DNA of 64,000 bases, taken from contig JAKQHS010000178.1 in NCBI GenBank assembly GCA_029557915.1, positions 51,516-115,515 of the forward strand, read 5' to 3'. A program made the translations under genes and the position numbers. This document shows, one piece after another, positions 25,633-35,788 of the stretch; position 1 is the first letter of the stretch, and every line of letters starts with the position of its first letter. The DNA comes from Bacteroidota bacterium. Its GTDB lineage: Bacteria > Bacteroidota > Bacteroidia > Chitinophagales > Saprospiraceae. The notes beneath the pieces are model-generated. The model searched no databases. It saw nothing but the letters and a program-made list of their open reading frames with translations, and was not told the origin of the DNA.

Positions 25633-27460
25633 GTTGATCGGTTAAGGTGGTTGAAGCATACCCGATGTGTTCCATGATTTTGTCATGGATCAGCATTCCG
25701 GTGATGGGGAGACCATCGTAATTAAGTACCGGGATCAGCCGGGCAGGGTCTACATCCAGTTCATTGATAAGGAGGGTTCTCATTTGGGCATCGCGGTTTT
25801 GCTCGACTACAAATATTTTCTGGTGGTCCTGGATAAAATCGGCAATGGAAGGATGGAAAGGGAAGGCCCGGATCCGGCCCAGATCGAGATGGATTCCCTT
25901 CTCTTCGAGCAGGTCGGCCGCTTCCAGGGATGAACTCTCCGAGGTCCCGAAATAAAGCATGCCCATTTTATTTTCCTGTTCCTGATTCTGCCATTCAGGA
26001 GCCGGCAGGTAATTTTTAATAGTGTCCCATTTCTTCAGAAGCCGGTCCATATTCCGCACATAAGGCTCTGATTCTTCGGTGTACCGGGCCATTTCGTCCC
26101 TGGAAGTACCGCGGGTAAAAAAACTGCCCTTGGTGGGATGGGTTCCCGGGATGGTCCGGTAGGGAATTCCGTCTCCATCCACATCCAGGTACCGGCCGAA
26201 TTCTTTGATCTCATCGAGTTGGGCGGCATTCAGCACCTTGCCTCTTTTATAATTTCTGCGGTCGTCCCAAACCAGGGGCTGACTGCTGTGTTCGTTCATG
26301 CCGAGGTCGAGATCGCTCATGAGGATGATCGGAGTCTGCAACTGTTCGGCCAAGTCAAAGGCCTCTGCGGTCATTTCAAAACATTCCCTGGGGGTGCTCG
26401 GGAAGAGCAGGGGGTGCTTGGTGTCCCCATGTGAGGCATAGGCACAGGCGAGGATATCGGATTGCTGGGTTCGGGTGGGCATGCCGGTCGATGGGCCACC
26501 CCGCTGGACGTCGATCAGTACGAGGGGGATCTCTGCAAAATAGGCCAGTCCCAGGAATTCACTCATCAAGGAAATACCCGGCCCGCTGGTGGCCGTAAAT
26601 CCGCGGGCTCCGTTCCAATTTGCCCCGATGGCTATCCCTATGGCCGCCAATTCATCTTCAGCCTGTACGAAGGCAAATTTTTTCTTGCCGGTTTTAGGGT
26701 CCAGGCGGTAGGAGGAAGCATATTCGTCAAAGGCCGACATCAGGGAGGTCGACGGGGTGATGGGATACCAGGCCGCGACGGTAGCTCCTCCATAGAGGGC
26801 GCCCAGGGCACAGGCACTGTTGCCATCGATCATGATCAGGTCTTTGTTTAGGTCGCGTCGTTCAATCCTGAATTTGGACGGAAGTTCAAAATGATCAATC
26901 AGGTATTGCCGGCCCAGGTGCAGGGCCTTTACATTGGGGGTGATCAGTTTTTCCTTACCCTTAAACTGGTCCGACACCATTTGTTCAAGGACCGCCATTT
27001 CCATATCCAGCAGGGTAGCCACGGCTCCCACATAGACCATGTTTTTAAACAGGAGGCGCTGTCTCGGGTCGGCGTAATTCTGGGCGCAGATTTCGGTCAT
27101 CGGGATCCCGATATTGTTCACTTCGTCCCGGAGCAAACCCTTCGGCATGGGTTTGGTATTGTCATAGATGAAATACCCTCCGGCCGAAACGCTGGCAATG
27201 TCCTTGGCCAGGCTCTGCGGATTGATGCTGACCATGATATCTATTCCGTTTCTCCGTCCGAGATGGCCTTTTTCATTGACCCGGATCTCATACCAGGTGG
27301 GCAGGCCCTGGATGTTGGAGGGGAAGATGTTTTTAGGTGAAACAGGCACCCCCATCCGGAAAATAGCTTTTGCAAATAGGTTGTTTGCACTGGCCGATCC
27401 GGTGCCGTTGACATTGGCAAACCGGATGACGCAGTCGTTTATTTTTTCTATACGTGACAT
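25598..27460 (-). CDS. korA: 2-oxoacid:ferredoxin oxidoreductase, alpha subunit (gamma-alpha fusion)
   Basis: Protein of 620 residues joining the gamma domain (residues 1-190, starting FANVNGTGSASANNLFAKA) to the alpha pyrimidine-binding domain (from about 205, NSACALGALYGGATVAAWYP) and a C-terminal transketolase-like domain. This is the two-subunit KorAB form. Its first 13 bases overlap the preceding oxidoreductase gene and its last 35 overlap korB, so the three are translationally coupled. Confidence 0.93.
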   Translation of the reverse strand: MSRIEKINDCVIRFANVNGTGSASANNLFAKAIFRMGVPVSPKNIFPSNIQGLPTWYEIRVNEKGHLGRRNGIDIMVSINPQSLAKDIASVSAGGYFIYDNTKPMPKGLLRDEVNNIGIPMTEICAQNYADPRQRLLFKNMVYVGAVATLLDMEMAVLEQMVSDQFKGKEKLITPNVKALHLGRQYLIDHFELPSKFRIERRDLNKDLIMIDGNSACALGALYGGATVAAWYPITPSTSLMSAFDEYASSYRLDPKTGKKKFAFVQAEDELAAIGIAIGANWNGARGFTATSGPGISLMSEFLGLAYFAEIPLVLIDVQRGGPSTGMPTRTQQSDILACAYASHGDTKHPLLFPSTPRECFEMTAEAFDLAEQLQTPIILMSDLDLGMNEHSSQPLVWDDRRNYKRGKVLNAAQLDEIKEFGRYLDVDGDGIPYRTIPGTHPTKGSFFTRGTSRDEMARYTEESEPYVRNMDRLLKKWDTIKNYLPAPEWQNQEQENKMGMLYFGTSESSSLEAADLLEEKGIHLDLGRIRAFPFHPSIADFIQDHQKIFVVEQNRDAQMRTLLINELDVDPARLIPVLNYDGLPITGMLIHDKIMEHIGYASTTLTDQHDLRKTSFSAS

Positions 27461-29238
27461 GGAGTCCCTGCTTTAGCGGTGTTGTACAAGAATCGCTGCA
27501 TATCCCAGGCAGCAGTCGGGCATCGTTCGGCGCATAAACCGCAATGGAGGCAAACGTTTTCATCTTTGACCATTACCCTTTTGGTGGCCAGGGGGGAGGA
27601 AACGTAAAGATCCTGGCTCAATAGCTGCGCGGGTGCGTTGAGGCGGCCCCGGAGATCCTCTTCCTCGCCGTTGTGGGTAAAGGTGATGCAGGAGGTAGGG
27701 CAGATGTCGGCACAGGCGTCGCATTCAATGCAGCGTTCAGCAGTAAAGACCGTCTGGACGTCGCAATTGAGGCATCGCTGGGCTTCCTTGAAAGCAAGCA
27801 GGTCATCAAACCCCAGTTCGACTTCCTTCTTCCTGTTGGTAAGGGTTTCCGATTTACTGGCGTGAGGCACTTTGTACCTGAGGTCGGTGACTACGGTGCT
27901 GTCATAGCTCCATTCATGAATACCCATTTTCTGGGTAACCAGGTTGGTCAGGGGATCCGGCCGGTTGTAAAGGTCCTCTCCATTGCAGAAAAGATCGATG
28001 GACACGGCCGCCTGGTGGCCCTGGGCCACCGCCGTGATCACATTCTTAGGACCGAAGGCCGCGTCGCCGCCGAAAAATACCCGGGGAAGGGTGGAGCCAA
28101 AAGTGATTTTGTCCACCAGGGGCATTCCCCATTTATCGAATTCAAGCCCAAGATCCTTTTCGATCCAGGGAAAAGCATTTTCCTGGCCTATGGCAATGAT
28201 GACGTCATCGGCCTCAAAAAATATATCCGGTTCGCCGGTGGGTACCAGGGAGCGTTTCCCTTGGTCATCATATTGGGCAGCCACCTTCTCAAACAGCATT
28301 CCCCTGAGCTTGCCGTTTTCATGGACAAAGGCTTTTGGGTTATGGAGATTGAAAAAAGGAATGTCTTCGTGTTGGGCGTCTTCAATTTCCCAGGGTGAGG
28401 CTTTCATCTCATCAAACGGACTCCGCACCACCACTTTTACGTCGGTGCCGCCCAGGCGGCGTGAAGTCCTGCAACAATCCATGGCCGTGTTGCCCCCGCC
28501 CAGGACCAGGACTTTTTTGCCGATCTTATCCACATGGTTAAACGCCACATTGGCCAGCCATTCAATGCCAATGTGAATATTGGCCTGAATTTCCTTTCGT
28601 CCGGGGAGCCCGGACAGGTCTTTGCCCCGCGGGGCCCCGGTACCGACAAATACCGCATCGTAACCGGACTCCAGCAGGTCTTTGAGACTGTGTACATAGG
28701 TTTTGAAATGCGTGGATATGCCTCCAATGCCCAGGACATATCCCACCTCTTCATTCAACACCTCCTCCGGGAGGCGGAAGGCCGGGATTTGAGACCGCAT
28801 CATGCCTCCGCCCAGGGGCTGTTCATCATAGAGGTCGATTTCATATCCGAGGGGGGCCAGGTCACGGGCTACCGTCAGGGAAGCGGGGCCTGCGCCCACA
28901 AGAGCAATTCGTTTACCATTGCCGGTTTCCGGTGCCGAGGGCATCCTGGAGACCACTTCACCTTTAAAATCCGCAGCGACGCGTTTGAGACGGCATATGG
29001 CCACGGGCTCTTTTTCCACCCGGCCGCGGCGGCAGGCAGGCTCACAGGGCCGGTCACAGGTCCTTCCGAGGATCCCCGGGAAGACATTGGATTCCCAGTT
29101 GACCATATAGGCGTCGCTGTATCGTTCAGCGGCTATAAGTCGGATATATTCAGGTACCGGGGTATGGGCAGGACAGGCGTATTGACAGTCGACTACTTTA
29201 TGAAAGTACTCTGGGTCTTTAATATTTGTCGGTTCCAA
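27448..29238 (-). CDS. GltD-like FAD/NAD(P) oxidoreductase with C-terminal 8Fe ferredoxin domain
   Basis: Protein of about 596 residues from a TTG at 29236-29238 (EPTNIKDPEYFHKVVDC); an ATG at 29406 would add a 56-residue extension lacking family character. The N-terminal Fe-S domain has CQYACP and CDRPCEPACRRG. The flavin domain has VGAGPASL, and the NAD(P) domain has LGGGNTAMD. The C-terminus carries two 4Fe-4S clusters (CIECDACADICP, CLHCGLCAERCP). Overlap with korA suggests it passes electrons between reduced ferredoxin from KorAB and NAD(P)H. That role is inferred. Confidence 0.88.
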   Translation of the reverse strand: MEPTNIKDPEYFHKVVDCQYACPAHTPVPEYIRLIAAERYSDAYMVNWESNVFPGILGRTCDRPCEPACRRGRVEKEPVAICRLKRVAADFKGEVVSRMPSAPETGNGKRIALVGAGPASLTVARDLAPLGYEIDLYDEQPLGGGMMRSQIPAFRLPEEVLNEEVGYVLGIGGISTHFKTYVHSLKDLLESGYDAVFVGTGAPRGKDLSGLPGRKEIQANIHIGIEWLANVAFNHVDKIGKKVLVLGGGNTAMDCCRTSRRLGGTDVKVVVRSPFDEMKASPWEIEDAQHEDIPFFNLHNPKAFVHENGKLRGMLFEKVAAQYDDQGKRSLVPTGEPDIFFEADDVIIAIGQENAFPWIEKDLGLEFDKWGMPLVDKITFGSTLPRVFFGGDAAFGPKNVITAVAQGHQAAVSIDLFCNGEDLYNRPDPLTNLVTQKMGIHEWSYDSTVVTDLRYKVPHASKSETLTNRKKEVELGFDDLLAFKEAQRCLNCDVQTVFTAERCIECDACADICPTSCITFTHNGEEEDLRGRLNAPAQLLSQDLYVSSPLATKRVMVKDENVCLHCGLCAERCPTAAWDMQRFLYNTAKAGTPCHV

Positions 29239-29389
29239 ACAATTTATCTTAAAAATTTTGGGACGAAAATTACGGTTTTTAAGCGATTTACTGTGGTGAA
29301 AAAAAATTGCCGCCGGGGTTCCGACGACAATCTTTCTGTTCACTCCTGCCGGCATTTCCTGCCGGCAAGTCAAGGCCTGGTAAACAACA

Positions 29390-29417
29390 GGAGAGACCGT
29401 AATCATGTGGTCTCTCC
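29390..29417 (-). terminator. Hairpin downstream of the peroxiredoxin gene
   Basis: Perfect 9-bp inverted repeat GGAGAGACC/GGTCTCTCC with a 10-base loop, starting 26 bases after the peroxiredoxin stop on the minus strand. The sequence after it is only moderately T-rich. A second hairpin of two TGCCGGCA copies lies at 29347-29367. Together they probably end the cysM-to-peroxiredoxin transcript. Confidence 0.45.
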
Positions 29418-29442: not shown

Positions 29443-30078
29443 TTAAAGGTTGGGTTGAGGGGTATAGCGGAGATAGGGTTTGATTTTCCGGAACCCTTTG
29501 GGAAATCTCTTTTCCGCATCGGCATCGGATATGGATGGAAGGATGATCACATCCTCCCCGTTTTTCCAGTTGACGGGGGTGGCCACCCCGCTGTTAGCGG
29601 TTAGTTGCAGGGAGTCGATGACCCGGAGGATTTCATCAAAGTTTCTGCCGGTGGATGGCGGATAGGTGATGGATAATTTCAGTTTCTTATCCGGTCCGAT
29701 GATAAATACGCTGCGCACCGTGGTCTTTTCAGCGGCCCCGGGATGGATCATATCATACAGCTCAGCCACGTGGCGGTTTTCATCGGCGATGAGGGGATAA
29801 TTGACCTTGGTCACCTGGGTCTCTTCAATGTCGTGGATCCAGGTGGTATGGGAAGCCAGCGGGTCGACGCTCAGGGCAAGGATTTTTACATTGCGATTGT
29901 CAAATTCGGGCTTCAATTTGGACATGTATCCCAGTTCGGTAGTGCAGACGGGGGTGAAGTCTGCGGGATGGGAAAACAGGACCGCCCAGCTGTTGCCGAG
30001 CCAGTCAAAAAAGTCAATTTCTCCCTGGGAGGTTTGAGCTTTAAAATTCGGGACGAGGTCCCCAAGTCTAAGTGCCAT
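29443..30078 (-). CDS. 1-Cys peroxiredoxin (Prx6 type)
   Basis: Thiol peroxidase of 211 residues. The active-site motif PVCTTE (Cys45) and the long C-terminal domain (KRFPKGFRKIKPYLRYT) place it in the Prx6/1-Cys group. It reduces hydrogen peroxide or organic peroxides. It lies 83 bases after moeZ in the same direction with no clear terminator between, so it may be the last gene of the cysteine operon. Confidence 0.93.
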   Translation of the reverse strand: MALRLGDLVPNFKAQTSQGEIDFFDWLGNSWAVLFSHPADFTPVCTTELGYMSKLKPEFDNRNVKILALSVDPLASHTTWIHDIEETQVTKVNYPLIADENRHVAELYDMIHPGAAEKTTVRSVFIIGPDKKLKLSITYPPSTGRNFDEILRVIDSLQLTANSGVATPVNWKNGEDVIILPSISDADAEKRFPKGFRKIKPYLRYTPQPNL

Positions 30079-30161: not shown

Positions 30162-31340
30162 TTAGTAGGTGGGCATGGACTGGTCAATTTCTTTGGCCCA
30201 GGCCAGGATGCCCCCTTCCAGATTATACAGGTTGTCAAATCCGTATTTTTCCTGCAGCATTTCAATGACATCGGCGCTTCTTTTGCCGCTGCGGCAATGC
30301 ACGATCACCTGCTTGTCTTTCGAAATTTTCTGCACGTGGCTGGTGACTTCGCTTTTGGGCATGAGTTCGCCGTGGATATTTGCGATTTCATATTCATACG
30401 CTTCACGGACATCCACGATCTGGATATTGGCATTCCGGTCGATCAACTCCTGGAGTTGTTTGACATTGATGGACTTGACGGGCAGTTTTTCGGCCTGGTC
30501 GGTAGGTTTTTCAAAGCCGCAGAACTGCTGATAGTCAATGAGACCGGTCTGGCTGGGATTTTCGCCATTGAGGGGATTGTCCTTGCGCCTTTTTATTTTG
30601 AGGGTACGGGTTTCAAACGTTGCGGCATCAAACAAAAACAACCTTCCGCTAAGAGGTTCCCCAACCCCGGACAGGACTTTGATCACCTCACTGGCCTGGA
30701 TGCTTCCCAGGATTCCGGGCAGGACGCCCAATACTCCGCCCTCCGCACAACTGGGTACGAGTCCCGGGGGTGGCGGGGTCGGAAAGAGGTCCCTGTAATT
30801 GGGGCCCAGCTCCCCGGCTTTATTTTTATAATTAAAAACGGTGGCCTGCCCTTCGAACCGGTAGATGGAGGCATAGACATTGACCTTTCCCAGGAGTACG
30901 CAGGCATCATTGACGAGATAACGGGTTGGAAAATTGTCGGTTCCGTCCGCCACGACATCGTAATCCCGTATGATGTCCAGGGCATTGTCGCTGGTCAGCG
31001 CGGTCTGGTGGGGAATGATTTTGATAAAGGGGTTTAGGGCTTCCAGTCTTTTTTTCGCGGCGATCACTTTGGGGATCCCGAGATCATCCCTCGTAAAGAG
31101 CACCTGTCTCTGCAGGTTGCTGTCATCGACTACATCAAAATCAACCAGGCCAATGGTCCCAACGCCCGCAGCAGCAAGGTACAGGAGGAGGGGAGCCCCG
31201 AGGCCACCGGTGCCCACGACCAGGACTTTGGCCTGTTTCAGTTTTTTCTGGCCTTCGATATTAAATTCCGGAAGGATGAGATGCCGGCTGTACCGGGCCA
31301 GTTCTTCCGGTGAAAATTTTATTTCTCCGTTCACGGTCAT
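30162..31340 (-). CDS. moeZ: MoeZ-type sulfur-carrier adenylyltransferase with rhodanese domain
   Basis: Protein of 392 residues. An E1-like/MoeB domain with ATP loop GTGGLG at 43-48 and Cys198 in VPSCAEGG is joined to a C-terminal rhodanese domain whose active loop is CRSGKRS (Cys349). Enzymes of this type adenylate the C-terminal Gly of a ubiquitin-like carrier and then load sulfur as thiocarboxylate. The adjacent cysO-like gene (28 bases upstream) supplies the likely carrier. The same gene content is known for the Mycobacterium CysO pathway. Confidence 0.92.
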   Translation of the reverse strand: MTVNGEIKFSPEELARYSRHLILPEFNIEGQKKLKQAKVLVVGTGGLGAPLLLYLAAAGVGTIGLVDFDVVDDSNLQRQVLFTRDDLGIPKVIAAKKRLEALNPFIKIIPHQTALTSDNALDIIRDYDVVADGTDNFPTRYLVNDACVLLGKVNVYASIYRFEGQATVFNYKNKAGELGPNYRDLFPTPPPPGLVPSCAEGGVLGVLPGILGSIQASEVIKVLSGVGEPLSGRLFLFDAATFETRTLKIKRRKDNPLNGENPSQTGLIDYQQFCGFEKPTDQAEKLPVKSINVKQLQELIDRNANIQIVDVREAYEYEIANIHGELMPKSEVTSHVQKISKDKQVIVHCRSGKRSADVIEMLQEKYGFDNLYNLEGGILAWAKEIDQSMPTY

Positions 31341-31368: not shown

Positions 31369-31644
31369 TCAGAGGCCGCCGGCGATGGCCGGAATGATGC
31401 TGATGGTATCGCCCGGGTTGACCCGGGTCTCCTGTCCTTCCAGGTCCTCAATATCGTTTTCCCCGATAAAAATCCGGACAAAGCCCCTCAGTTTCTGATC
31501 TTCATTAAAGAGGTGTTTGTCCAGGTCGGGAAATTGTTGGGTGAGGTCGCGGATGGATTCCAGGACGGTGCCTTCCTGGACGGCTACCGCGGCCTGGTTT
31601 GAAGTGAATTTTCGCAAGGGGGTAGGGATGATGATTTTTGCCAT
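31369..31644 (-). CDS. cysO: Ubiquitin-like sulfur carrier protein, CysO/MoaD family
   Basis: Protein of 91 residues with the MoaD beta-grasp fold. It ends ISIIPAIAGGL, close to the ILPAVAGG end of Mycobacterium tuberculosis CysO but with one extra Leu after the Gly-Gly. The extra residue would have to be removed before adenylation, and the neighbouring JAMM protease is a natural candidate. It follows that gene by 6 bases and precedes moeZ. Confidence 0.9.
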   Translation of the reverse strand: MAKIIIPTPLRKFTSNQAAVAVQEGTVLESIRDLTQQFPDLDKHLFNEDQKLRGFVRIFIGENDIEDLEGQETRVNPGDTISIIPAIAGGL

Positions 31645-31650
31645 ATGAGT

Positions 31651-32088
31651 TTAATTATTTGAATGGTAGTTGATTTTTAGAGTTTCTTCCTGGAATACCC
31701 GTTGTTCGGAAAGCCTCCAGGACCGGGTATCGAGGGCCTGTCCCTGGTGGACGCTGGTGATGAAATAAGACAACTCCGGAAGGGCGTCCTCGAGGTCGCG
31801 TGCGGAAGGCCTTGGGGGATGGTCCGGATGGGAATGGAAGACCCCCACCAGCAGTTTGTTGTTTTCCAGGGCATAACGTTCAGCGCGCATAAATTCCAGG
31901 GGAGGGATGGTGTAATGCACTTTGTGGTTTTCATTGCTGTTGTTGACTACCTCACGGACCTCCTCTGCACGCAACGGTTGACCGGCTTCGCCAAATATAA
32001 ATCCGCAGCATTCATAGGGGTAGGTCTTTTCCGCGATATCGTGGATGGCCTTCAGTACCGATGGTTTGATCTCAATGTCCATGATCAT
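31651..32088 (-). CDS. mec: JAMM/MPN+ zinc protease, Mec+ type
   Basis: Protein of 145 residues with a complete JAMM site: Glu26 (YECCGF), His85-Ser-His87-Pro, Ser95 and Asp98 in HSHPDHPPRPSARD. In the mycobacterial pathway Mec+ cleaves cysteine from the CysO-cysteine adduct. The ATG overlaps the cysM stop as ATGA. MIMD offers two possible starts; the first is used because of that overlap. Confidence 0.92.
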   Translation of the reverse strand: MIMDIEIKPSVLKAIHDIAEKTYPYECCGFIFGEAGQPLRAEEVREVVNNSNENHKVHYTIPPLEFMRAERYALENNKLLVGVFHSHPDHPPRPSARDLEDALPELSYFITSVHQGQALDTRSWRLSEQRVFQEETLKINYHSNN

Positions 32089-33011
32089 TTATAGACTTCC
32101 TGGTATTTGGATGCGTCGTCGGCAAACAGGGTGACAATGGTTCCTTCTTCCATGGTCTTTGCGACCTGCAGGGCCCCGGTCAGATTGGCTGCGGCGGAAG
32201 GGCTGATGAGCAGGCCTTCTTTTTTGGCCACCTCATCGATCAGTTTAAAGGCATCATAGGATGAAACCTGCAGGATCTGGTCTGGCGTGCCGGGATCGTA
32301 GATTCCGGGGACTTCCGCGGTTTCCAGGTGTTTCCAGCCTTCCAGGCCGTGAAGCGGCCCATCGGGTTGAAGGGCGATACACCGGATGGCCGGGTTATAG
32401 GTCTTTAGCCTTTTGCTGGTCCCGGTAAAGGAGCCGGTGGTCCCGAGGCCAGCCACAAAATGGGTGATATAGCCGGAAGACTGGCGCCAGATTTCAGGGG
32501 CTGTGCTGTGGTAATGGGCCTTCCAGTTGTTTTCATTGTTGTATTGATCACAATAAAAATAGGGTTGATCCATTTTGGCATAGATTGCAAGGGCAAGCTG
32601 CCTGGATTCGTCGGTCCCTCCGTAGGGAGAACTGAGGACTAGTTCCGCGCCCAGTTTTTTCAGAATTTGCTGTCGCATCCTGGAGGCGTTTTCCGGCATG
32701 ACGAGTTTGATTTTCAGGCCCAGGCTGGCGGCGAGGGTGGCCAGTGCAATCCCGGTATTGCCGCTGGTTGCATCCAGGATGGTATGATGGGGCTGAAGCT
32801 CCCCGGTATGAATGGCTTGCCTGAGCATATTATACGCGGGGCGGCTTTTTACGCTGCCCCCAAACTGCTGCCATTCCAGTTTGGCGAAAATTTTCACCTT
32901 TTCGGTGGAAAAATGATGAAGGGGGAAAAGCGGGGTGCCGCCCACCCATCTTCCCAGGGATTCCACCGATTTCACCAGGTCCGTATTGCTCCAGGTAATG
33001 GTCTCGTTCAT
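32085..33011 (-). CDS. cysM: PLP-dependent cysteine synthase, CysM type
   Basis: Fold-type II PLP enzyme of 308 residues. The Schiff-base lysine is Lys55 in GGSVKSRPA, the substrate loop is SGNTG at 83-87, and the phosphate-binding loop is GLGTTG at 188-193. Linkage to a JAMM protease, CysO and MoeZ suggests that the sulfur donor is thiocarboxylated CysO and the acceptor O-phosphoserine, as in M. tuberculosis CysM; use of free sulfide is not excluded. It is the first gene of the operon, and its ATG is 14 bases after the second of two attenuator hairpins. Confidence 0.92.
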   Translation of the reverse strand: MNETITWSNTDLVKSVESLGRWVGGTPLFPLHHFSTEKVKIFAKLEWQQFGGSVKSRPAYNMLRQAIHTGELQPHHTILDATSGNTGIALATLAASLGLKIKLVMPENASRMRQQILKKLGAELVLSSPYGGTDESRQLALAIYAKMDQPYFYCDQYNNENNWKAHYHSTAPEIWRQSSGYITHFVAGLGTTGSFTGTSKRLKTYNPAIRCIALQPDGPLHGLEGWKHLETAEVPGIYDPGTPDQILQVSSYDAFKLIDEVAKKEGLLISPSAAANLTGALQVAKTMEEGTIVTLFADDASKYQEVYK

Positions 33012-33025
33012 ATCCGTTTTATAAA

Positions 33026-33065
33026 TCAGAAAGCCTTCCGGGTTTTATCTCGAAAGGCTTTCTGA
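33026..33065 (-). terminator. Attenuator hairpin 2 before cysM
   Basis: Minus-strand stem TCAGAAAGCCTT/AAGGCTTTCTGA, 12 bp with a 16-base loop, followed by TTTAT. Its first arm and loop contain CCTTTCGA (complement of 33050-33057). This is exactly complementary to TCGAAAGG (33101-33108) just after the Cys codons of leader 2, giving a competing 8-bp antiterminator. Confidence 0.75.
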
Positions 33066-33081
33066 ATGATTCTGAAATTAT

Positions 33082-33195
33082 TTATTGCATCATTAGATGA
33101 CCTTTCGAAAACAACCCTTTACAACAACAATACGCACAGGTACAAGCCGGTCCGGCTGCCTCATTTGTGGTATTTGTTTTGTAATAAATGGTCAT
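33082..33195 (-). CDS. Cys-rich leader peptide 2 (37 aa)
   Basis: Short frame of 37 codons, ATG to TAA, with Cys at positions 18, 20, 23, 24 and 25, all TGT codons. It lies between two terminator-like hairpins directly upstream of cysM. The window's proteins are otherwise poor in Cys, so five in eight residues is exceptional. The role proposed is a sensor of charged tRNA-Cys for transcription attenuation; a metal-binding mini-protein is the alternative. Confidence 0.75.
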   Translation of the reverse strand: MTIYYKTNTTNEAAGPACTCAYCCCKGLFSKGHLMMQ

Positions 33196-33213
33196 TTTCA
33201 AATCTGGTCTAAA

Positions 33214-33256
33214 ATCAAAAAGCCTTCGGGTTTTTCTGACCAGAAGGCTTTTTGAT
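33214..33256 (-). terminator. Attenuator hairpin 1
   Basis: Perfect 14-bp stem ATCAAAAAGCCTTC/GAAGGCTTTTTGAT with a 15-base loop; the second arm and what follows read GGCTTTTTGATTTTAG. It lies between the two leader frames. Its arm and loop can instead pair with the end of leader 1: CTTCT/AGAAG (33276-33280 with 33242-33246) and GTCAG/CTGAC (33283-33287 with 33236-33240), 10 bp in all. Confidence 0.78.
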
Positions 33257-33278
33257 ATTTTATTATATCCGTTAACTT

Positions 33279-33344
33279 CTATGTCAGATGAGGATGCCTA
33301 CAGCAACAACAACATGCACAACATATACCGATAACAGATTTCAT
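33279..33344 (-). CDS. Cys-rich leader peptide 1 (21 aa)
   Basis: Short frame of 21 codons, ATG to TAG, containing CCACCCCC at residues 8-15: seven Cys, six of them TGT. Its ATG lies 13 bases after the -7 box of a strong promoter, so it is the first thing translated on this transcript. The stop codon lies inside the segment that can pair with hairpin 1. A ribosome that reaches the stop would mask that segment, and one stalled at the Cys codons would leave it free. Confidence 0.8.
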   Translation of the reverse strand: MKSVIGICCACCCCCRHPHLT

Positions 33345-33357
33345 TGTTTCTTGTTCA

Positions 33358-33389
33358 CAAAAGTACAATTGCCGTGCCAGTTTTGCAAA
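33358..33389 (-). promoter_or_regulatory. Promoter of the cysM operon and its leaders
   Basis: Minus strand TTTG (33386-33389), 20 bases, then TACTTTTG (33358-33365): a near-ideal Bacteroidota promoter. Transcription should start around 33352, about 8 bases before leader 1. The rest of the spacer up to 33594 holds no gene I can support; a weak 8-bp inverted repeat lies at 33480-33504. Confidence 0.75.
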
Positions 33390-33594: not shown

Positions 33595-33954
33595 TTACCA
33601 TTCCATCTGGTCACTTTTCGACTTGTCCTCGTCGTGGATCGAGTCGTCGTGGTTGTCGTGATTTTCATCGCGGTGGGCAAACTGGTCGTAGTCAAAATCC
33701 GGAAGGAGGTTGGTTTTTACATGATTGACCACATCCTGGAGGCCTTCTACAAAGCGGTTGAAATCTTCTTTGTACAGGAAAATCTGGTGGCGGATATAAC
33801 CATTGCCGTCAGACCGCCGGGTGCTTTCCGTAAGTGTGAGGTAATAATCATTGCCCCTTGTCTTCATTACATCGAAAAAATAAGTGCGTTTACGCCCGGC
33901 TTTCACCTTGTGGGAGTACACGCTTAAATTACGTTGGGTACCATCGTTTTCCAC
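33595..33954 (-). CDS. DUF3276 protein (PUR-alpha-like nucleic-acid-binding)
   Basis: Protein of 119 residues from a GTG at 33952-33954 (ENDGTQRN). An ATG at 34140 would overlap the upstream ABC gene by 137 bases and add sequence unlike the family. The domain KRTYFFDVMKTRGNDYYLTL and FLYKEDFNRFVEGL matches DUF3276, a single-repeat PUR-type domain that binds single-stranded nucleic acid in related proteins. The C-terminal tail is highly charged (Asp, His, Lys). It is downstream of the ABC exporter by 49 bases. Confidence 0.85.
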   Translation of the reverse strand: MENDGTQRNLSVYSHKVKAGRKRTYFFDVMKTRGNDYYLTLTESTRRSDGNGYIRHQIFLYKEDFNRFVEGLQDVVNHVKTNLLPDFDYDQFAHRDENHDNHDDSIHDEDKSKSDQMEW

Positions 33955-34003
33955 GGTAAGGTTAAGTTTTTGATTGGTACCAAATATACAATTTTGAAAC
34001 CAA

Positions 34004-35788
34004 TCAAAAAACCTCGACTTCACCGGGTGCGTTGGACTCTTCCCATTTTTGCCGCTCGAGGAGTTTATAATAAAGTCCTTTTTTCCGCAGCAGTTCGTCG
34101 TGGGTGCCGGATTCTTCCAGGCGCCCTTTATGGAGGACAAGGATCTGGTTGAAGCCCATCAGGTGGTTGAGGCGGTGGGTGATCAGGATGGCGGTTTTGT
34201 GATTCAATACCTGTTCAAAGGCCTGGATGATTTTTTTTTCGGTCCGGGTATCCACTGCGCTGAGGCAATCGTCAAGCAACAGGATATCGGGATTCATGGC
34301 CAATGCCCTGGCTATGGCTACCCTTTGTTTTTGCCCGCCAGACAGGCTGACCCCCCTTTCTCCAAGGATGGTCTGCATTTTATCCGGCAGTTGCCTGATC
34401 TCCTCTTCTATGGCCGCATGCCTTGCCGTTTGCCAGACCACCTCTTCGCCGAGTGAAGGTGCGCCCAGGCGGATATTGTTGTGGATGGTTTCTGAAAACA
34501 GGAAATGATCCTGCGGCACATACCCGATTTTTTTTCTCAGGGCATTCAGGTCATAGTCTTTGATGTTGACCCCATCCACGAGGATTTCCCCGGAGGTGAC
34601 GTCAAACAGCCTTAATAAAAGTTCTGCAATGGTGGTTTTGCCTGCGGCCGTCCTACCGATGACGGCCAGGCGCGAGCCGGGTTCGATGACAAAGGATACC
34701 CGGTCCAGGGCAAGGGTCCCGGTATTGGGATAAATAAAACTTACCTCCTTAAATTCTATCCTGCCCTGCAACTTCTCCGGCTTGTAAGTGCCGGTGGATT
34801 CCACGGCTGGTTTAAGGGTAAGGAATTCATTGATCCTCTTCATCGAGGCCTCAGCCTGCTGCACGATGGAAGCCAGCCAGCCGATGGCGGTCACCGGCCA
34901 GGTCAGCATGTTGATGTAGATCACAAACTCGGCGATATTCCCGGCCGTCACCGCACCGGATTGAACCCGGTAAACCCCTGCCCATACGATGATTACGGTA
35001 CTCAGGCCGGTAAGCAGCATGATCAGCGGGAAAAACAAGGCATTGACCCGGGAAAGGTCGAGGGTGTGGGTCTTGTACTCTTCGGTTTCCTCCCTGAAAA
35101 ACCCGGACATGGCTTTTTCCTGCGTATAGGATTTGACGATCCGGATACCCGAAAAGACCTCCTGCGCAATGCTGGTAAGTTTGGCCAGCTGACGTTGGAT
35201 CAGGGTGCTTTTACGGTTGATCAGGGTGCTTACATAATAAATGGATATGGAAAGGAAGGGGAGGGGCAGGAGGGTGAGCAGGGATAAAGTAAGGTCCACC
35301 TTGACCATACTAAAAACCACCAGGACGATCAGGGCCGCGAGATCAATCGCATACAATACGGCGGGACCCAGGTACATCCTGACCTTTGAAACATCTTCCG
35401 TAATCCTGGACATCAGGTCCCCCGTGGTCTGGCGGCGGTAGAAGGACTGGTCCAGGGTCGAATAGTGGGTAAAAATATTTTTGCGGAGGTCATATTCAAT
35501 CAGCCTGGAGATTACGATGATGGTCTGTCGCATGAAATACATGAATATCCCCATCAATACTGCGCAACCGAATACGATCAGGCCAAAACGAACCAGTTGG
35601 GGAGCCAACCTTTGACGGGATTCCGTATCGGGATTTTTTAATTCTTCGACCACCAGGTCCAGGGCGTCCCGGATCATCTGGGGCTGGACAATCCGGAAAT
35701 AATTCATCAACAGGACAAAAACAATGCCCGCCAGGAAACGCCATTTATATTTTAGAAAATAAGTATTGAGGGTCCAGAGCTGTTTCAA
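34004..35788 (-). CDS. ABC exporter (fused permease-ATPase half-transporter)
   Basis: Protein of about 594 residues with six N-terminal helices and a C-terminal ATPase: Walker A GRTAAGKTT, signature LSGGQKQR, and Walker B followed by DDCLSAVD. The residue after the Walker B Asp is Asp rather than the usual catalytic Glu. The TTG at 35788 is preferred, because the more upstream TTG at 35815 lies inside a TATTTTTG -7 box (35813-35820) and homologues begin at LKxLxxLNxYFLKYK. Substrate unknown; lipids or drugs are usual for this family. Confidence 0.9.
   Translation of the reverse strand: MKQLWTLNTYFLKYKWRFLAGIVFVLLMNYFRIVQPQMIRDALDLVVEELKNPDTESRQRLAPQLVRFGLIVFGCAVLMGIFMYFMRQTIIVISRLIEYDLRKNIFTHYSTLDQSFYRRQTTGDLMSRITEDVSKVRMYLGPAVLYAIDLAALIVLVVFSMVKVDLTLSLLTLLPLPFLSISIYYVSTLINRKSTLIQRQLAKLTSIAQEVFSGIRIVKSYTQEKAMSGFFREETEEYKTHTLDLSRVNALFFPLIMLLTGLSTVIIVWAGVYRVQSGAVTAGNIAEFVIYINMLTWPVTAIGWLASIVQQAEASMKRINEFLTLKPAVESTGTYKPEKLQGRIEFKEVSFIYPNTGTLALDRVSFVIEPGSRLAVIGRTAAGKTTIAELLLRLFDVTSGEILVDGVNIKDYDLNALRKKIGYVPQDHFLFSETIHNNIRLGAPSLGEEVVWQTARHAAIEEEIRQLPDKMQTILGERGVSLSGGQKQRVAIARALAMNPDILLLDDCLSAVDTRTEKKIIQAFEQVLNHKTAILITHRLNHLMGFNQILVLHKGRLEESGTHDELLRKKGLYYKLLERQKWEESNAPGEVEVF

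Follow-up and report, generated by a model that had tools for sequence, protein, structure and literature searches.

Attenuation of the classical kind, as in the trp, his and ilv operons, combines a short leader frame enriched for codons of the amino acid that the operon makes with an intrinsic terminator and a mutually exclusive antiterminator. For cysteine, poly-Cys leader frames are described from Mycobacterium, P. acnes and B. longum; according to the section of PMC1262725 that deals with them, they have no conserved terminator, and their Cys run lies near the stop codon. Poly-Cys leaders are called cysteine-responsive in the title of Canestrari et al. 2020, as that title is cited in PMC13236596 and PMC9094748. 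Tandem attenuators are described for the Salmonella mgtCBR operon, where they respond to ATP and proline and are termed a singular example in the relevant passage of PMC3641672. From the Bacteroidota themselves, the transcriptome of Flavobacterium psychrophilum is said in the corresponding passage of PMC9723704 to hold strong indications of leader-peptide attenuation upstream of operons for amino acids, and short frames in 5' UTRs of Bacteroides thetaiotaomicron are noted in PMC7366714, in the lines that concern them, as reminiscent of leader-peptide attenuators.

The leader analysed here lies upstream of cysM in the window, by which we mean the whole 64,000-nt stretch of DNA that was analysed. 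By its sequence, it has all three elements of the trp, his and ilv leaders, and it differs from them in that the amino acid is cysteine, in that two complete gates for this same amino acid stand in series, and in its compact design, with one alternative strand around the leader end. With the actinobacterial poly-Cys leaders, cysM leaders share short frames with Cys runs before cysteine genes, but they have terminators, matched antiterminators and often two units; as for the position of the run, the median number of codons after the last Cys is 11 in second and single gates and 4 in first gates. The mgtCBR leader likewise has two short frames in one leader, which govern transcription of one operon through attenuation, as is predicted for cysM; here, in contrast, the same codon is used in both frames, each of the two window frames being Cys-rich, and the layout recurs in many loci. 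Compared by sequence, the tandem cysM leader is a conserved variant of classical attenuation that is new among the literature matches listed. These matches, with most subscription journals outside their coverage, include no Bacteroidota cysteine attenuator and no two gates for one amino acid, in line with the first-pass annotation, which had supposed a tandem Cys version to be undescribed. An attenuation survey by Lopatovskaya from 2010 may list Bacteroidota attenuators.

Layout of the leader and its operon

The leader and the genes behind it are read on the minus strand, in the following order.

33358..33389, minus strand: predicted Bacteroidota-type promoter (TTTG at 33389-33386, 20-nt spacer, TACTTTTG at 33365-33358)
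33279..33344, minus strand: leader frame 1, 21 codons with 7 Cys, MKSVIGICCACCCCCRHPHLT, by direct reading
33266..33289, minus strand: predicted antiterminator strand A1, overlapping the leader 1 stop codon, from own-versus-swapped pairing
33214..33256, minus strand: terminator-like hairpin 1, with T-rich end TTTTTGATTTT
33082..33195, minus strand: leader frame 2, 37 codons with 5 Cys, ..ACTCAYCCC..
33094..33115, minus strand: predicted antiterminator strand A2, within leader 2, from own-versus-swapped pairing
33026..33065, minus strand: terminator-like hairpin 2, with weak U-tract TTTCTGATTTAT
32085..33011, minus strand: cysM, cysteine synthase B-like (PALP); best NCBIfam model TIGR01138, below its cut-off
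31651..32088, minus strand: Prok-JAB (JAMM) protease, Mec-like
31369..31644, minus strand: ThiS-family sulfur carrier, CysO-like
30162..31340, minus strand: ThiF plus rhodanese, MoeZ-like
29443..30078, minus strand: peroxiredoxin, next in the predicted operon
27448..29406, minus strand: NAD(P)-binding Fe-S oxidoreductase, same strand

The promoter match rests on what we take to be the Bacteroidota promoter consensus; the ATG of leader 1 is 13 nt downstream of the predicted -7 box, and the cysM ATG, at 33011, is downstream of hairpin 2. Promoter, both leaders and both hairpins had been placed at these positions by the first-pass annotation, and direct reading bears this out. Short leader frames in which codons for the amino acid made by the operon cluster are thus present, and between leader frame and first gene there is, as judged by sequence, an intrinsic terminator whose U-tract falls below the median of its relatives. 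Of the earlier description of the hairpins as terminator-like, the hairpins themselves stand, with -22.6 kcal/mol for gate 1 and -23.5 kcal/mol for gate 2 in a purpose-made terminator scan, but their U-tracts are poor, the second above all: the best 8 nt hold 6 T behind hairpin 1 and 5 T behind hairpin 2, against a median of 7 (n = 144 gates). A simple terminator scan did not list the two window hairpins, whose loops and T-tracts its rules probably excluded, and a search of the whole window with Rfam at gathering thresholds gave a single tRNA and no match in the leader. The window leader (341 nt) folds better than 100 of 100 dinucleotide shuffles (z -6.3), which serves as a first hint only, since a whole-leader single-strand fold ignores the ribosome and the order of synthesis.

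Downstream, the genes for CysM, the JAMM protease, the ThiS-family protein and the ThiF-rhodanese protein were found in this order, as the first-pass annotation had it when it named a CysM/Mec/CysO/MoeZ operon, a gene set that we take to be the route known from actinobacteria. The C-terminal end of the CysO-like carrier (31369-31644) is GGL, not GG, so that one residue may need trimming before activation.

Recurrence of poly-Cys gates before cysM

We speak of a gate where a frame no longer than 60 codons has at least 3 Cys codons in 7 and an intrinsic terminator behind it, within 700 nt. From 156 non-redundant cysM loci, including that of the window, we excluded 6 distant paralogs (L016-L021) and 4 loci with less than 400 nt upstream; the 146 regions used comprise 74 from genome sets and 72 from named records, the named-record loci coming from the best 80 of 261 CysM relatives. 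Near-identical species remain in this set, as do L144 and L158, which come from a single genome, and the window's own locus (L001) is counted in the 146 and among the tandems below.

At least one poly-Cys gate is present in 107 of the 146 upstream regions and two gates in 37, that is, in about a quarter of the regions and about a third of the gate-bearing loci, the remaining 70 of the 107 having a single gate. Five dinucleotide shuffles gave at least one gate in only 2, 4, 5, 2 and 2 regions, and two gates in none; when at least 4 Cys are required, 101 of the 146 real regions stand against 0 of 146 in each of the five shuffles. The signal is also seen independently of any gate definition: the coding strand has 129 TGY runs of at least four codons and the opposite strand has 1, and an ATG lies within 25 codons in the Cys frame for 121 of the 129, compared with 9 and 36 for the other two frames. 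As a control we scored other residues in the same real regions, with Leu in 65 of 146, Ser in 30, Lys in 29, Ile in 26, Val in 25 and the rest in at most 22; at 4 or more in 7, Leu remained in 42, Val in 15 and the rest in at most 7. The high Leu count can be put down to its six codons and, in part, to the same TGY repeats read in another frame. The poly-Cys leader with terminator before cysM is real and goes beyond chance, and its recurrence across relatives, doubled in 37 regions, supports the regulatory reading that the first-pass annotation had suggested for the window.

The frames have further features in common. Leader starts are A-rich (A content 0.40 and 0.44, compared with 0.30 around other ATGs), and leader Cys codons lean to TGT (583/798, against 54/117 in cysM sequences). 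No clear coding constraint was detected outside the Cys run in 16 pairs, where differences at positions 1, 2 and 3 number 61, 64 and 79 (p 0.25).

Tandems occur in records named Saprospiraceae and Chitinophagaceae and, by eye, in Flavobacteriales. The second unit of one of them (L177) is doubtful, so at least one of the 37 is affected. No gate was detected within 700 nt in 39 of the 146 regions; by eye, some of these have gates further upstream, some have poly-Cys frames without a terminator, and others have nothing. In five loci (L055, L163, L195, L147, L117), the gates lie about 1 kb upstream, before another frame that precedes cysM. In the Balneolales/Fodinibius cysM leaders (L153, L160, L161, L168, L183, L186, L191, L199), the poly-Cys run is at or near the stop codon; except in L186, there is no intrinsic terminator at the working threshold, and three have a TTG start only. 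With the run near the stop and mostly no detected terminator, these leaders are like the actinobacterial poly-Cys kind.

Alternative pairing and ribosome geometry

In each gate, we call the leader stretch behind the Cys run strand A, the 5' arm of the hairpin B, and its partner in the terminator hairpin C. The first-pass annotation held that each leader can pair with its own hairpin, and this was examined by comparing own with swapped arms on representatives (81 of the 107 loci, 112 of the 144 gates). With the 5' arm plus loop, own pairing has a mean of -15.3 kcal/mol, against -10.3 kcal/mol for swapped partners (112 gates); the mean rank of the own arm plus loop is 0.12, and it falls in the best tenth for 68 of the 112. 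By position, mean ranks are 0.104 for first, 0.100 for second and 0.147 for single gates. Since own pairing is better than swapped and the paired arm pieces differ in sequence in 109 of 112, the pairing persists through changing letters. Without the loop, the mean rank over all 144 gates is 0.24, with 56 in the best tenth.

For the window itself, A1 with B1 plus loop gives -15.3 kcal/mol and is equalled by 0 of 142 swapped arms, and A2 with B2 plus loop gives -17.3 kcal/mol and is equalled by 3 of 142, so the alternative pairing claimed for each leader is found in both. When the loop is left out, gate 2 keeps a rank of 0.007, while gate 1 falls to -6.2 kcal/mol and a rank of 0.46, no better than swapped arms; its alternative pairing would therefore run largely through the hairpin loop. 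A predicted antiterminator that excludes the terminator is thus kept through changing sequence, in gate 1 with the loop only.

Folds predicted with a ribosome in place show B held upstream with a probability of 0.66 when the ribosome stalls at the first Cys codon, 0.14 when it stands at the stop codon and 0.46 with a swapped arm. The contrast between stall and stop is partly trivial because the stalled RNA is longer, and it is the swapped arm that makes a fair control. When no ribosome is present, B is also predicted to be held upstream at 0.46, that is, about half of the time, so the default state would not be cleanly off. Strand A begins a median of 29 nt downstream of the first Cys codon and lies at most 15 nt from the stop codon in 37/37 first, 31/37 second and 60/70 single gates, 128 of 144 in total. 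In this geometry, A would stay free while a ribosome is stalled on the Cys codons and would be hidden by one that has reached the stop codon; the predicted strand A positions are the layout that ribosome-mediated attenuation requires.

Two gates in series: promoter, differences and origin

Of the 107 gate-bearing loci, 46 have the promoter-like motif TAnnTTTG no more than 75 nt upstream of the first leader; of the 37 second leaders, 1 has it, the background being 0.075 per 75 nt. First and second gates differ in a regular way. Second leaders have more codons after the last Cys in 31 of the 37 tandems and fewer in 5, and single gates have a tail like that of second gates. The Cys run is longer in the second leader in 21, shorter in 8 and tied in 8 (p 0.024), the window being an exception. 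Measured from the stop codon, the median start of strand A is 0 in first gates, -18 nt in second gates (paired p 1e-5) and -19 nt in singles.

Units within one locus are more alike than units from separate loci, to a degree that 0 of 2000 permutations reached (for the hairpins by themselves, p 0.004), and window hairpin 2 is closer to window hairpin 1 than the 36 second hairpins of the other tandem loci are. This likeness fits duplication or later conversion, and shared base composition can contribute. The earlier idea of one duplicated unit thereby gains modest support, though as first and second gates differ so regularly, the doubling need not be recent. When the label "two" (40 rows) is mapped on a CysM tree with 112 rows, it needs 16 changes, against 32.8 when shuffled, and well-supported branches force at least 2 changes of it; the tree was made by a quick method with a branch test only, leaving out rows with fewer than 200 CysM residues. 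For this tree, 11 loci outside the 37 were labelled tandem by eye or at looser thresholds (L055, L163, L195, L147, L039, L040, L150, L094, L098, L085, L117), and L039 and L040 among them have weak first U-tracts.

Leaders for other amino acids and before cysH

In 60 genomes, including the window's own, poly-His gates stand before hisG in 23 of 28 loci and poly-Trp gates before trpE-like genes in 28 of 29, the codon rule for Trp (2 in 7) being looser than the 3 in 7 asked of His and Cys. In no genome did the trpE model reach its cut-off, and 1 of 30 trpE loci was too short. Cys gates occur at 1/28 hisG loci and 0/29 trpE-like loci. The own genome has a poly-His leader (L275) before hisG and a poly-Trp leader (L301) before a trpE-like gene (MLIHHGHHHHHLLQHANG and MKKTNNSWWWQVPDPRVV), each with a terminator. 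From these poly-His and poly-Trp leaders, amino-acid attenuation looks usual in these genomes, with the residue following the pathway. Doubling is more frequent at cysM (37/107) than at his and trp together (3/51; Fisher p 6e-5, with genome samples that differ), and the difference is weaker against his alone (37/107 vs 2/23, p 0.013). In L262 and L266, two poly-His leaders with terminators stand in series before hisG, a doubling beyond cysteine; at trp, one locus was scored as two gates, and this is doubtful.

Four consecutive Cys codons are matched at 32 places in the own genome, and the reversed pattern at 9. Besides the cysM leader, the only short ATG frame of this genome with four consecutive Cys that does not lie inside a long frame stands before cysH-cysD: L207 1455-1526 (G000 contig C25, about 67894-67965), MRRIRHDDLFKHAHGCCCCCCCR, about 100 nt upstream of cysH. 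Its Cys run is at the stop codon, no terminator was found behind it, and it resembles the actinobacterial kind. Poly-Cys frames without a terminator precede cysH in 3 of 9 loci (L234, L235, L237). The poly-Cys leaders before cysM and cysH suggest that two architectures of cysteine control may operate in one cell.

Proposed mechanism and alternatives

Based on these comparisons, we consider it likely that the leader holds two transcription attenuators in series, each ribosome-mediated and responsive to cysteine. When Cys-tRNA is ample, the ribosome would reach the leader stop codon and cover strand A, so that B would pair with C in the terminator hairpin and RNA polymerase would stop. When Cys-tRNA is scarce, the ribosome would stall on the Cys codons, upstream of A; strand A, left free, would pair with B and the loop, the terminator would be blocked, and the polymerase would continue. 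With one predicted promoter box, upstream of leader 1, the polymerase would have to clear both gates before cysM. Read-through would then be the product of two probabilities, giving lower leak and a steeper response. We infer the transcription start, translation, termination, cysteine response and multiplicative effect from the sequence.

The two gates may also be specialised and act as an AND gate, a two-stage RNA filter that would ignore brief dips in Cys-tRNA and open on sustained shortage; we offer this as a tentative idea that is more doubtful than the serial arrangement itself. In such a filter, the first gate would have few codons after the Cys run and an alternative strand near the stop codon or past it; the second would have, as a rule, the longer Cys run and an alternative strand within the frame.

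It is possible, if rather unlikely, that one gate only is functional in this genome, the other having arisen by duplication or being in decay, its hairpin too U-poor to terminate. The weak U-tracts of the window, especially the second, the good alternative pairing of gate 1 through the loop only and the resemblance between units of the same locus would all suit a decaying copy, as would the prevalence of single gates (70/107 relatives), whose tail and A position are like those of second gates; in L039 and L040, by eye, the first hairpin has no good U-tract. Against this, both window gates have, with the loop, a near-best own pairing, own-arm matching is as good in first gates as in second gates, and two gates occur in several parts of the CysM tree. 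Very improbable, in our view, is an action of the leaders without intrinsic termination, in which stalling at Cys codons would control Rho-dependent termination or the translation start of the next gene. This has been proposed or reported for mycobacterial poly-Cys frames, Actinobacteria leaders without terminators are treated in section 6 of PMC1262725, and terminator-free poly-Cys frames stand before cysH in 3/9 loci and before cysM in 7/8 Balneolales/Fodinibius loci. The 144 cysM gates, however, have T-tracted hairpins (median 7 T of 8) together with a matched A strand, and the his and trp leaders of related genomes consist of frame and terminator as well.

Cys runs could bind metals, and a peroxiredoxin gene follows downstream on the same strand, so the poly-Cys peptides might instead sense metal or redox state, arresting the ribosome or acting as small proteins, with a signal other than cysteine charging. 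We find this scarcely credible: residues other than those of the Cys run show no clear protein-level constraint, TGT predominates among the Cys codons, and hisG and trpE-like genes have His and Trp leaders of comparable layout, where the residue follows the product. A variant compatible with serial attenuation would couple the gates, in that an opened gate 1 would free C1, C1 would pair with B2, and gate 2 would open, so that leaky escape past a closed gate 1 would be caught and true opening passed on; we give it very little credence. The pairing of C1 with B2 within a locus does beat permuted partners (p 0.0006 and 0.0004; -18.5 kcal/mol in the window), but the pairing of C2 with B1, a control with no role in such a relay, is no weaker (0 of 5000 permutations; -22.1 kcal/mol in the window), and the rank test is weak (mean 0.42). 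Because this control is as strong, plain likeness of the two hairpins explains the C1-B2 pairing, and we rejected this pairing as special evidence for an inter-gate relay in which C1 opens hairpin 2.

If the serial-attenuator reading is true, Bacteroidota have widespread cysteine control by classical attenuation with intrinsic terminators. The tandem leaders show that one amino acid can be spelled out in two successive frames before a single operon, in a layout that recurs across several groups. Serial gating would be a simple way to cut leak and sharpen a response, useful both for understanding regulators and for building them. The filter idea, if true, would mean that an RNA-level persistence detector can be built by repeating one attenuator. 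The analysis also supplies positions for many small frames before cysM, cysH, hisG and trpE-like genes.

Distribution of CysM and the frame upstream of the promoter

CysM is patchy: at E <= 1e-75, it was found in 46/298 genomes of the family, 59/298 of the order and 16/395 of the class. The nearest genome, G001 of the same genus, gave no cysM match at E <= 1e-60. At L247 (G001 contig C137), the region upstream of prx looks foreign by eye, and the contig is probably chimeric. In the window, a frame at 33595-34140 lies upstream of the promoter, and a relative of it is present in L248 of G001, a genome without detected cysM. The product of this frame seems to resemble the PUR-like DUF3276 proteins.
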